From positions 1-38,427 of the forward strand of contig JANYCX010000192.1 of NCBI GenBank assembly GCA_025360065.1: a stretch of 38,427 nucleotides of DNA, given 5' to 3'. Shown one piece after another: positions 19,421 through 28,434 of the stretch (position 1 is its first letter; the number at the start of each line of letters is the position of its first letter). Position numbers and translations under genes: made by a program. Source of the DNA: Acetobacteraceae bacterium. Lineage in GTDB: Bacteria > Pseudomonadota > Alphaproteobacteria > Acetobacterales > Acetobacteraceae. Under the pieces are notes generated by a model. That model did no database searches. It was not told where the DNA came from and worked only from the letters and a program-made list of their open reading frames with translations.

Positions 19421-19456
19421 TTCTTTTTGTGAACAAAAAGAACCAAAAAAACTTTT
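19421..19456 (-). repeat. AT-rich palindromic repeat, copy A
   Basis: On - strand: aaaagtttttttggttctttttgttcacaaaaagaa; 10-bp perfect arms TTCTTTTTGT/ACAAAAAGAA (19421-19430 / 19433-19442). Confidence 0.88.
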
Positions 19457-24207: not shown

Positions 24208-24765
24208 ATGATCCAAAACAGCTACGACAGCACCGCCGACACGCTGCGCCACATCGCCGAAGTGCGGAACCGGCTTGAGGTTTTCGTGGTCGAGATGCTG
24301 CGGCGCGGCCGGGTGCATGACGCGAGCAAATTCACCCCAGAGGAAAAGCCGGCCTTTGACGAGGCCATCCCCGCCATCAAGGGGCTGGCCTATGGCTCGC
24401 CGGCATATAACGAAATCGTCGCCCGGGTGCGCCCGGCATTGGCGGTGCATTACAGCCGCAATTCGCATCACCCGGAGTTTTATGGCGAGCGTGGGATCGC
24501 CGGGATGGATCTGTTCGATCTGGTGGAGATGCTGTGCGACTGGATGGCAGCGGCGCAACGCAATCCGGCCGAAGGAAGCGTGAAGGGAAAGGCCTTTTTT
24601 TGTGAACAAAAAGAAACAAAAAAACTTTGTCTGTTTGTTGCCAAACTGGCCGGTGAGGGCGATGATGTTGGTTCAACAGCAGAGCGAGTGAACCATGCGT
24701 CTGTTCATTTCGTACGGCCATCAGCCGCCTGCGCTTGCGGCGTTCGTGCGTCAGGTTGCCGATGA
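24208..24765 (+). CDS. DUF5662-like protein with a disrupted, non-native C-terminal tail
   Basis: 'LRHIAEVRNRLEVFVVEMLRRGRVHDASKFTPEEKPAFDEAIP...HYSRNSHHPEFYGERGIAGMDLFDLVEMLCDWMAAAQRN' family pattern; from about residue 125 the frame reads through an AT-rich repeat ('KGKAFFCEQKETKKLCLF'). Confidence 0.65.
   Translation: MIQNSYDSTADTLRHIAEVRNRLEVFVVEMLRRGRVHDASKFTPEEKPAFDEAIPAIKGLAYGSPAYNEIVARVRPALAVHYSRNSHHPEFYGERGIAGMDLFDLVEMLCDWMAAAQRNPAEGSVKGKAFFCEQKETKKLCLFVAKLAGEGDDVGSTAERVNHASVHFVRPSAACACGVRASGCR
24594..24628 (-). repeat. AT-rich palindromic repeat, copy B
   Basis: On - strand: caaagtttttttgtttctttttgttcacaaaaaaagg; matches copies at 19421-19456 and 28399-28434. Confidence 0.85.
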
Positions 24766-27115
24766 TCTCGAAAAGCGTGGCTATGCGATCTGGATAGACA
24801 GCAGGGACATCAACGATGCGCATCCCGATTGGCGGCGGGCGCTGACGGATGCGCTGGCGGCCGGGCCGGTCTGGACCTTGGGCTTTTTGTCGCGCCACGC
24901 GATGCGCGAGGTTGATGGCAGCCCTGGGATTACCCGGCAGGAAATGGCGTTCGCGCTTGATCGCAATGCCGGGCGGCTTGCCACCGTGCTGGTCGAAAAA
25001 CTTGCCGATGACTGGTCGGTACCGCCGGGGCTGGGGCGCCATCAATGGGTGGATATGTCGGACTGGGAGGATCGCCAGGGCGACGATGCTTGGTACGAAG
25101 GCAAGCTGGATGAGATTACCAAGCGGCTCGACCCGGCATCGGCCGCATTGTTTGATAGTGAAATGGCGCTGCTGGCCACGCATTTATCCCCGGTGCGGCA
25201 GGGCGCGGATATTGATCTGCTGGTGGATGGGTTCGTCGGGCGGACATGGTTGCTGGAAAAGCTTGAAGCCTGGCGGCAGGACCCGAAAGGGCGTGGCATG
25301 TTCTGGCTCACCGCCCAGCCCGGCACCGGGAAATCCGCCTTTGCGGCCTGGCTCGCGCATAGCCACAGCGCCAATGTGGTGGCGTTGAATTTATGCCATT
25401 GGAGCTTGCCGGACCGCTGCAATCCGCAAAAAGTCTTTTCCAGCCTGGCCTATGAACTGGCGCGCCGGGTGCCGGATTACCGCGCACATCTGCTCAATGC
25501 GCTGCGCGCCCAGGCGCGCAACCCGGCTTATGACGGTGGGATTGATCCGGTCAAATTGTTTAATTGGCTTGCCGACTCGCCGCCGGACGCGCTGTTCGAG
25601 GCGTTGCTGGTGCAGCCTTTGCACGATGCCTTCAATGGCGGACTGAACACCGACAAATTGCTGCTGGTGATCGATGGGCTGGACGAGGCACTGGACAATG
25701 CGCGGCATTTCGCCACTGGCGGGCTGGTGCAAACCCTGATCGCCCGCGACAAAATGCTGCCGCCGTGGCTCGGGTTGCTGGTGACCAGCCGGCATGACGT
25801 GCTGGCCGCCGAGTTCGGGCGCAATCCCGATGTGCATATCGATGATAGCAAAGACAATCGCGCCGATTTGCAGCTTTACGCGGCGGCGTGGCTGCGCGCA
25901 CGGCCGGGGCTGACCGATGATGAGCGCGTGGCACTGTTGGCGGCGATCGATGCCAATGCCGATGGCAATTTCATGTATTTGCGCAAATATCAGGAAGGGG
26001 TGGACAAGCGCGGCTTCCCGCTCGATCCCCAGGCGCTGCCCAGGGAGTTGGGGGGGATTTATCTGCAATGGTTCCGCCGCCAGTTTGTTGGGCCGGCGCC
26101 GCGGAGGCATAATCTGGCCAGTTATCGCCGCGATTTTGCCCCGCTGCTGGCGGTGCTGGTCGCTGCCGACAATGCCGTGCCGGAGGAATTGCTAACCGAG
26201 TTGCTGGGCTGGACGGACCCGTATCAGGCGGCCGATCGGCTCGGGTCGCTGGGCAGCTTATTTCAGCGGCGCGGCGATGGCTGGACGCCGTGCCATAAAA
26301 GCCTGCGGGACTGGCTGCCGGATCGCGCCGCGGCGACGGCGGATTTTTTTGTCGATGTTGCAGATGCGCGGCGGCGGTTGGCCGATCTGCTCGGCCGGCG
26401 GCTGGCCGCGGCCGGTGCCGCGGCGCTGCCGGCAGGGTTCTTGCGGGCTGAATTTCCCGGGCTGATTGAGGCGATGGATGCCCGCGCGCAAACAACCTGG
26501 CTGGCAGCGTATGGTGGGACGGTGGCGCTGCGGTCCAGCATCACGGCGACCATCACAGCGTTGCGAGACGCCCGAGCGTGGCAGGCAAGCCTGGCCTGGT
26601 GCGCGGCGGCGCAAATGCTGGCGACGGCGGGCAAGGATTATTGGCTCGGGATGTGGGCGGTGGGTGGCGCAGGGGATATTCATACCATCCTCGGCAATAG
26701 CGCTGCCGCCATGACGGCGTTTCGACAGGCAGAAAAATTCGCGGCGCTGCGCGCGGATGCCGAAAAAGACAATCCAGGCACGATGCGCGATCTGTCGGTG
26801 TCATTCGAAAAGATCGGCGACGTGCTGGGGGCGCAGGGCCAGTTGGAGGCGGCGCTGCAATCCTATCGCGACAGTCTCGCGATCGCCGAACTTCTGGCGA
26901 AGGCCGATCCGGGCAATGCCGAGTGGCAGCGGGATCTGTCGGTGTCGTTATTTAAGATTGCGCAGGTGGAGCGAGGGGCTGGCAGGGCGGGGGAGGCATT
27001 GGCGGGTTTGCGGCGAGGACAGGAGATTATGGCGTGGTTGGTGGCGATGGACCCGAGCCATGCCGGGTGGCGGGGGGATTTGGCGGTGTTCGAGCGGTTG
27101 ATCGCGGAGATGTAG
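24695..27115 (+). CDS. TIR domain - STAND-type NTPase - TPR protein (candidate NLR-like/antiphage)
   Basis: N-term 'MRLFISYGHQ...LEKRGYAIWIDSRDINDAHPDWRRALTDAL...GFLSRHAM...RQEMAFAL' (TIR-like); Walker A 'TAQPGTGKSAFAAWLA'; Walker B 'KLLLVIDGLDEAL'; C-terminal 48-aa TPR-like units starting 'DLSVSFEKIGDVLGAQG' and 'DLSVSLFKIAQVERGAG'. Confidence 0.85.
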   Translation: MRLFISYGHQPPALAAFVRQVADDLEKRGYAIWIDSRDINDAHPDWRRALTDALAAGPVWTLGFLSRHAMREVDGSPGITRQEMAFALDRNAGRLATVLVEKLADDWSVPPGLGRHQWVDMSDWEDRQGDDAWYEGKLDEITKRLDPASAALFDSEMALLATHLSPVRQGADIDLLVDGFVGRTWLLEKLEAWRQDPKGRGMFWLTAQPGTGKSAFAAWLAHSHSANVVALNLCHWSLPDRCNPQKVFSSLAYELARRVPDYRAHLLNALRAQARNPAYDGGIDPVKLFNWLADSPPDALFEALLVQPLHDAFNGGLNTDKLLLVIDGLDEALDNARHFATGGLVQTLIARDKMLPPWLGLLVTSRHDVLAAEFGRNPDVHIDDSKDNRADLQLYAAAWLRARPGLTDDERVALLAAIDANADGNFMYLRKYQEGVDKRGFPLDPQALPRELGGIYLQWFRRQFVGPAPRRHNLASYRRDFAPLLAVLVAADNAVPEELLTELLGWTDPYQAADRLGSLGSLFQRRGDGWTPCHKSLRDWLPDRAAATADFFVDVADARRRLADLLGRRLAAAGAAALPAGFLRAEFPGLIEAMDARAQTTWLAAYGGTVALRSSITATITALRDARAWQASLAWCAAAQMLATAGKDYWLGMWAVGGAGDIHTILGNSAAAMTAFRQAEKFAALRADAEKDNPGTMRDLSVSFEKIGDVLGAQGQLEAALQSYRDSLAIAELLAKADPGNAEWQRDLSVSLFKIAQVERGAGRAGEALAGLRRGQEIMAWLVAMDPSHAGWRGDLAVFERLIAEM

Positions 27116-27122
27116 ACATTGC

Positions 27123-27280
27123 TGGCGCCATAGCGAGCGACCCGGAAAAGGGTCCCACGTGGTCTACAAGAAGCTAGCCATTCCATTGTGGTGCTGCTGA
27201 ACCATGGTGGTGACCTTGCACCTGGAACGCTGCGGAGCATTTGCGCGGCCGCCGGCTGGGACTATCCACCGCGTCGCTGA
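27123..27280 (+). pseudogene. hicA toxin remnant (5'-truncated and frameshifted)
   Basis: Frame of 27123/27150 reads WRHSERPGKGSHVVYKK; a different frame then reads HSIVVLLNHGGDLAPGTLRSICAAAGWDYPPRR* (TGA 27278-27280). Together these reproduce a HicA 'GSHxxYKK...VxHxxxDLxxGTLRSIxxxAGW' pattern; immediately precedes hicB. Confidence 0.72.
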
Positions 27281-27293
27281 ACAGGGGATTTCA

Positions 27294-27701
27294 GTGACCA
27301 TCTGCCACTATCTCGCGATCGCCGAACACGCGCCGGAAAATTGGTCGCTGAGCTTCCCTGCGTTTCCCGGCGCCGTCACCACCGGCCAGGATTTCGCCGA
27401 ATTGATCGCGCATGCGCGTGACGCACTGGCGTCAGTCGTCGCGGCCATGCAGGAAGATGGCGACAGGCTGCCGGCGAGTTTTGAGGCATCGCCTGAAGTG
27501 CCCGCTTTTGATTTGGCTGAGTACGTTGAACCGCGCATCGTGCCGGTGGATGTTGGCGGGCGATCGGTGCGGATCAACGTGACGATGGACGAGGGCTTGG
27601 TGGCGCGGCTCGACAGTCTTGCCGATCGTGCGCATGTGAGCCGTTCGGCGTTGCTGGCACGGGGAGCGCGGATGGTGCTGGCGGTGGAGATGGCGGATTA
27701 A
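27294..27701 (+). CDS. hicB: HicB-family antitoxin with C-terminal DNA-binding (RHH-like) region
   Basis: 'AEHAPENWSLSFPAFPGAVTTGQDFAELIAHARDALASVVAAMQEDGDRLPAS' HicB pattern plus 'VRINVTMDEGLVARLDSLADRAHVSRSALLARGARMVL'. GTG start preferred over ORF-track ATG at 27204, which lies inside the hicA remnant. Confidence 0.85.
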   Translation: MTICHYLAIAEHAPENWSLSFPAFPGAVTTGQDFAELIAHARDALASVVAAMQEDGDRLPASFEASPEVPAFDLAEYVEPRIVPVDVGGRSVRINVTMDEGLVARLDSLADRAHVSRSALLARGARMVLAVEMAD

Positions 27702-27752: not shown

Positions 27753-28271
27753 ATGTTTACATTTTCCGACATCCTCACTGCGCTGCAGGCCGTGATCGCG
27801 GTTGCGTCGGCGCGCGACCGGAGCATGCCGATGTTTTTCATCGCGCTGTGGAACCGCGTCGGGCGGATGCGGGTGCGGTTGGAGAAGTTGATCGCGCTGT
27901 GGCGAGCGGGGATGCTGCCGAAGGCGCGGGTGCGTGGGTCGCAGGCTGGGGCTAGCCCGGAGCGGGTTCGTACGGAGAAGCTGACCTTCCCGAGCGTGCG
28001 CGGCTGGTTGATTCCGCGCGTGGGTGACGCGGCGAAGTTTGGTGCGATGCTGGAAACGATGCTGACGCAGGAGGAATGTGTTCGGTTTCTGGATGAGGTT
28101 CCGGCGGCAAAGCGCATTGTTGGGGTGCTGCAGCGGATGTTGATACCCGAGCAGGGCAAGGTGCCGCCGAAGGTGAGGCGGGAAGTGGTTTGGCCCCCGC
28201 CGGCGTGGCAGGAGGCGGTGCGGCAGGCGGGGATGCAGGTTGGGCGGACAGGCCGGCTTGAATGGGTGTGA
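27753..28271 (+). CDS. Uncharacterised basic protein (possible lineage-restricted family)
   Basis: 172 aa ORF 'MFTFSDILTALQAVIAVASARDRSMPMFFIALWNRVGRMRVRLEKLIALWRAGML...'; own promoter-like sequence; no recognised enzymatic motif. Confidence 0.65.
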   Translation: MFTFSDILTALQAVIAVASARDRSMPMFFIALWNRVGRMRVRLEKLIALWRAGMLPKARVRGSQAGASPERVRTEKLTFPSVRGWLIPRVGDAAKFGAMLETMLTQEECVRFLDEVPAAKRIVGVLQRMLIPEQGKVPPKVRREVVWPPPAWQEAVRQAGMQVGRTGRLEWV

Positions 28272-28316: not shown

Positions 28317-28398
28317 ATATTTTAAATTAAAGAGCAATTTACAATGAATTGGTGCAATGCGAAGGTGCATTCCACTTTACGCGGTGCACAAATCGGAG

Positions 28399-28434
28399 AA
28401 AGTTTTTTTGCTTCTTTTTGTTCACAAAAAGAAG
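28399..28434 (+). repeat. AT-rich palindromic repeat, copy C
   Basis: gaaagtttttttgcttctttttgttcacaaaaagaag; 11-bp perfect arms CTTCTTTTTGT / ACAAAAAGAAG (28411-28421 / 28424-28434). Confidence 0.88.

Follow-up and report, generated by a model that had tools for sequence, protein, structure and literature searches.

A TIR-STAND-TPR protein on a repeat-bounded Acetobacteraceae insertion as a candidate NLR-like immune receptor

The window analysed here, a stretch of 38,427 nucleotides from an Acetobacteraceae bacterium (assembly GCA_025360065.1, contig JANYCX010000192.1), carries a gene for a protein that joins a TIR domain, a STAND NTPase core and TPR units and that is probably a single-protein NLR-like immune receptor, acting by abortive infection through TPR sensing, a STAND switch and NAD+ cleavage by TIR. 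The gene (24695..27115; coordinates refer to the forward strand of the window unless stated otherwise) is a single open reading frame of 806 codons starting with ATG, exactly where the initial annotation had placed it, and is described from the open reading frame list, Pfam, an AlphaFold (AF2) model and homologues. In the mechanism that we infer, the C-terminal TPR superhelix would detect an infection cue, upon which the NPHP3_N/NACHT-type STAND ATPase would swap its nucleotide and oligomerise. The N-terminal TIR domains, activated by clustering, would cleave NAD+ through Glu83, which would halt growth or kill the cell ahead of phage maturation. The receptor gene itself is accessory and is carried by an insertion with repeats at both ends.

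Domains of the 806-residue protein

The TIR domain spans residues 4-126 (24704..25072) and is recognized by Pfam TIR_2 with an E-value of 1.8e-13. A TIR-like N-terminus had been proposed from the letters of the sequence and is well founded, as the TIR-domain profile of the homologues matches the known NADases Cat1, SARM1 and tir-1 and other TIR structures in the PDB; this profile was needed to reach them, since phmmer with the single protein as query found no match in the PDB. The candidate catalytic residue of an NADase is Glu83 (codon 24941..24943), located in the RQEMAFAL motif that the initial annotation had singled out. It is invariant, and Ala87 is nearly invariant, in an alignment of 12 sequences drawn from Acetobacteraceae, Prevotellaceae, Ruminococcaceae and Clostridiales, which represent three phyla. 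The E-x3-A-L spacing of QEMAFAL equals that of KEIVTAL in SARM1, whose Glu is the catalytic Glu of the SARM1 TIR domain, although a small gap interrupts the alignment to SARM1 at this place. In the alignment of the TIR profile with Cat1, the 'cldEl' column of the family aligns with a Cat1 Glu. The TIR domain is likely an active NADase, with Glu83 assigned by position.

The STAND NTPase core, of NPHP3_N/NACHT type, occupies residues 184-366 (25244..25792; Pfam NPHP3_N, 4.3e-16). The P-loop and Walker B claimed at the outset are both found, with key residues conserved across the 12-sequence alignment. In particular, the Walker A motif AQPGTGKS (residues 207-214, 25313..25336) has invariant G210, G212, K213 and S214, whereas its first residue is Ala here and in the nearest congener but Gly in most other homologues, and the Walker B motif LLLVIDGLDE (residues 322-331, 25658..25687) has nearly invariant D327, L329 and E331. 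A weak winged-helix-like region follows at residues 481-569 (26135..26401), where HTH_TANC1 matches at 2e-4; this is below the cut-off, which the same model passes in homologue L098, and AAA_16, NACHT and the TPR models also fall below their own Pfam cut-offs in this protein. The hallmarks of a STAND NTPase are all present, namely the P-loop, the Walker B with its acidic pair, the NACHT/NPHP3-type core, the helical/winged-helix region (below cut-off) and, as C-terminal superstructure-forming repeats, TPR helix pairs with a 48-aa period.

The TPR sensor (residues 660-806, 26672..27112) is defined by sub-threshold Pfam matches, the model and a comparison of its units. Three 48-aa units, at residues 660-707, 708-755 and 756-803, have pairwise identities of 19/48, 15/48 and 9/48. 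The AF2 model of the whole protein, built from only 12 sequences, reaches a pLDDT of 85 and a pTM of 0.79. It shows an alpha/beta domain at the N-terminus, then a P-loop NTPase extended by helices and, at the C-terminus, a superhelix in which helix pairs start at residues 649, 694, 742 and 790 and thus recur every 45-48 residues. Units and helix pairs together bear out the C-terminal 48-aa TPR-like units that had been claimed, and the structure prediction suggested by the initial annotation returned the alpha/beta domain at the N-terminus, its TIR likeness to SARM1 coming from the profile. In the PDB, Foldseek ranks first the STAND protein 6mfv, which has a TPR sensor, and NOD2 is also in the top ranks; the comparison used whole flexible multidomain chains, which keeps the TM-scores low (0.2-0.3). 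The joint presence of the TIR domain, the STAND core and the TPR units is far beyond chance. Related TPR arrays are found elsewhere under trypsin-like, TIR and TIR-nSTAND1 N-termini, as well as with a sub-threshold esterase match, and the sensor region therefore behaves as an exchangeable module.

As a separate observation, a TIR-TPR-Sel1 gene with related TPRs at locus L112 (G373:C11) adjoins the gene of a 1566-aa nSTAND1-WD40 protein, the N-terminus of which resembles DUF4062.

The insertion and its site

The receptor gene lies in an insertion between the DUF5662 gene and cysNC, whose matching stretches are 3,868 bp apart in the window versus 112 bp in congener G089. The latter genome is the empty site of the insertion: it has DUF5662 and cysNC without the insert, in agreement with the accessory stretch that the initial annotation had recognized here. 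The insertion is bounded by a left inverted repeat (24597..24631) and by a copy of it in inverted orientation at the right end (28395..28433, reverse strand). The flanking DUF5662 gene (24208..24690; Pfam, 1.5e-31) is disrupted at its 3' end beside the insertion. Indeed, it is without its normal C-terminus and its frame continues across the left repeat and into the beginning of the TIR gene, while the C-terminus is uninterrupted in congeners G089 and G150. Congener G229 is also without the insert, but a plain empty site was rejected for it: DUF5662 is cut short there and the sequence on the right looks like the outer half of the right repeat, so that a deletion scar left by loss of the insert is the likelier reading. 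At another site of that genome (G229:C382:5683-5868), a match of 62 codons to the TPR end adjoins an inverted-repeat copy and is likely the remnant of a similar insertion.

In congener G193, a TIR gene, cut off by the contig end after 254 residues and 91% identical up to there, lies directly behind DUF5662 in the same position, and the right end of the insert, with the 172-aa gene described below, is on another contig. The 254 codons of the TIR/STAND part that can be compared have a dN/dS of 0.165, which supports purifying selection on the receptor gene. Between the window and G193, dS inside the insert is 0.26 for the TIR/STAND part and 0.31 for the 172-aa gene, and outside it is 0.56 for DUF5662, 0.56 for the metallopeptidase-like gene, 0.74 for the hydrolase and 0.81 for cysNC. 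The lower divergence inside suggests that the insert is younger than the species split, or that it was exchanged between the lineages after the split; gene-to-gene variation in synonymous rate is another possible explanation of the difference.

Downstream of the receptor gene lies a remnant of HicA (27134..27277), which lacks a complete open reading frame and matches HicA_toxin (6.8e-4) over the C-terminal 27 of the 58 profile positions only (32-58). It is followed by an orphan HicB-like antitoxin gene with an RHH domain (27294..27701; HicB_lk_antitox, 5.6e-16), for which GTG at 27294 is the likely start. A complete HicAB toxin-antitoxin pair was rejected, HicA being a partial remnant and HicB intact but orphan. 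The last gene of the insert (27753..28271) encodes a 172-aa protein of a high-copy family.

Relatives and likely function

Matches at the level of TIR and STAND occur in roughly 8 of 398 Acetobacteraceae genomes in a whole-genome search, the remaining matches of which mostly cover the TPR region alone. A sample of 385 further genomes of the class yielded no credible match and one weak TIR-only match, while more distant homologues are found in Prevotellaceae, Ruminococcaceae and Clostridiales genomes. The phage collection searched gave no match, a scan of IMG/VR with the alignment gave no relative, and matches in a plasmid search were confined to TPR regions. Such a patchy occurrence fits horizontal spread. 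In one Prevotellaceae MAG (L032, 7836-10802), a TIR-STAND homologue lies directly after three large genes of 487, 904 and 913 aa, which are almost without Pfam match and possibly form one operon with it.

Most of the homologues inspected are single genes with housekeeping neighbours, for example lepA-like and oppD-like ones (names taken from translations, most not profile-checked). In the window, the flanks contain DUF5662, a metallopeptidase-like gene, a CocE-like hydrolase, cysNC and cysD, again read from translations, with DUF5662 alone profile-checked; judged by these gene names, no defence genes adjoin in the flanks, and homologue loci are mostly housekeeping. The initial annotation had read the locus as a defence module of one gene or a small operon and had proposed a survey of homologue neighbourhoods for defence islands. 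Its architecture and its likely function hold, but the small operon and the defence island are unsupported: since a broken HicA, an orphan HicB and one copy of a high-copy family are what follows the receptor gene, a defence operon was rejected.

The TIR-STAND-TPR gene is best filed under an already known architecture of antiphage protein. Rousset et al. 2022 described TIR-NLR, a single gene of P4-like satellites with TIR-STAND-TPR order that protects E. coli from phages, and proposed TPR sensing and NAD+ degradation for it (PMC9122126). The claim that TIR-STAND fusions occur in antiphage systems is thereby backed by experiment on a protein of the same architecture. Both are accessory single genes with TIR, a central STAND NTPase and C-terminal TPRs, the likeness being one of domain architecture; TIR-NLR sits on a P4 satellite in E. 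coli, whereas the gene described here is on a repeat-bounded chromosomal insertion. The protein of 6mfv shares the STAND and TPR fold but has 12% identity and, by its title, no TIR fusion. In the bNACHT proteins (e.g., bNACHT25, PMC12169576) and AVAST (Avs), an NLR-like NTPase also couples sensing to an effector in antiphage function. They carry other effectors, and the core here is nearest to NPHP3_N in Pfam, the curated NACHT model being below cut-off. The NTP-dependent conflict systems that Kaur et al. described in 2020 (PMC7159879) combine STAND/AP-ATPases, TIR effectors and C-terminal TPRs but are multi-gene (vWA-MoxR and related), and no such partner genes are present here. PADLOC offered no well-fitting model for the TIR-STAND-TPR protein (best bSEFIR, 1.6e-4 over 41 residues), and NCBIfam and PHROGs no close family.

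The catalytic outcome may differ from plain NAD+ loss. Some bacterial and plant TIRs produce cADPR isomers (PMC10022894), and hydrolase and cyclase are indistinguishable from a TIR sequence, so that the domain might make a second messenger like the cyclic ADP-ribose type of Thoeris, or use other nucleotides, and signal to another effector. No effector gene, however, adjoins the receptor gene in the window or its relatives in the homologue loci inspected, and this outcome is unlikely. Somewhat less likely still is a STAND regulator of a cellular process other than phage defence, which might act in stress or cell-death control or on other mobile elements, its TIR serving for interactions. Although such a role would agree with the solitary homologues adjoining housekeeping genes and with the functional diversity of STAND proteins, the distribution is patchy and horizontally moving, the candidate catalytic Glu is conserved and the look-alike is antiphage by experiment. 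That the gene might be a passenger without current function, decaying like its broken HicA neighbour, is very improbable: a related genome (G229) does retain just the 62-codon TPR match, but the reading frame here is full-length, selection on it is purifying and all motifs are intact. An NLR-like immune receptor is the reading that we prefer, although the poor PADLOC fit, the homologue loci without obvious defence islands, the Ala at the first Gly of Walker A and the low TM-scores count against it.

The repeat and the 172-aa gene family

The repeat that bounds the insertion consists of a 22-bp palindromic core TTCTTTTTGTGAACAAAAAGAA with a CAAAAAAACTTTCTCC extension and has a third copy in the window at 19421-19455, besides 24597-24631 and 28395-28433. 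The genome has about 85 perfect cores, which often form inverted pairs with a spacing of about 100 bp, whereas a reversed control pattern of the 22-bp core occurs nowhere in it. Several repeat elements lie directly behind the stop codon of a host gene. The repeat is MITE-like or terminator-like.

The 172-aa protein belongs to an Acetobacteraceae-restricted family: 33 of 150 Acetobacteraceae genomes contain it, and a sample of 189 genomes from the rest of the class yielded no member. Each of the five genomes of the genus (G000, G193, G089, G229 and G150) has 25 to 59 copies. In G193, at least 10 copies lie in near-identical inverted-repeat frames of about 0.8 kb, in which the left repeat begins 118-123 bp before the gene, the right repeat 88-124 bp after it, and longer inverted arms are visible in the sequences. 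Close copies have a dN/dS of about 0.2, and about half of their synonymous sites differ; on both counts the family is old and selected, not a fresh burst, and the divergence at synonymous sites led us to reject recent transposition of all copies. The model of the protein is mostly helical (pLDDT 81) and has no significant match among PDB folds. Its sequence has no match in Pfam, NCBIfam or PADLOC, and the best PHROGs value (0.14) is non-significant; a known transposase or REP-associated (RAYT-type) enzyme was rejected for want of a significant profile match and PDB fold match and in view of the mostly helical model. On one G193 contig, a TPR-array gene lies just upstream of a 172-aa gene and the right repeat of that gene, which gives the repeat/172-aa platform a second TPR conflict-type gene.

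Tentatively, the insertion might belong to an Acetobacteraceae family of repeat-bounded elements that collects conflict genes such as those for TIR-STAND-TPR proteins and carries them to sites directly behind host genes, with the 170-aa protein as part of the system. Such a family, with paired inverted repeats, would range from MITE-like units of about 100 bp, through units of about 0.8 kb with the 170-aa gene, to multi-gene versions.

Collectively, these data extend TIR-STAND-TPR receptors to a patchy lineage of Acetobacteraceae, with homologues in Bacteroidota and Firmicutes, and the candidate catalytic Glu and the P-loop are conserved across phyla. The gene provides a single-gene candidate suited to testing. 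Its carrier is the more open lead, a conserved protein without a PDB fold match on what may be a repeat-bounded, high-copy element family.
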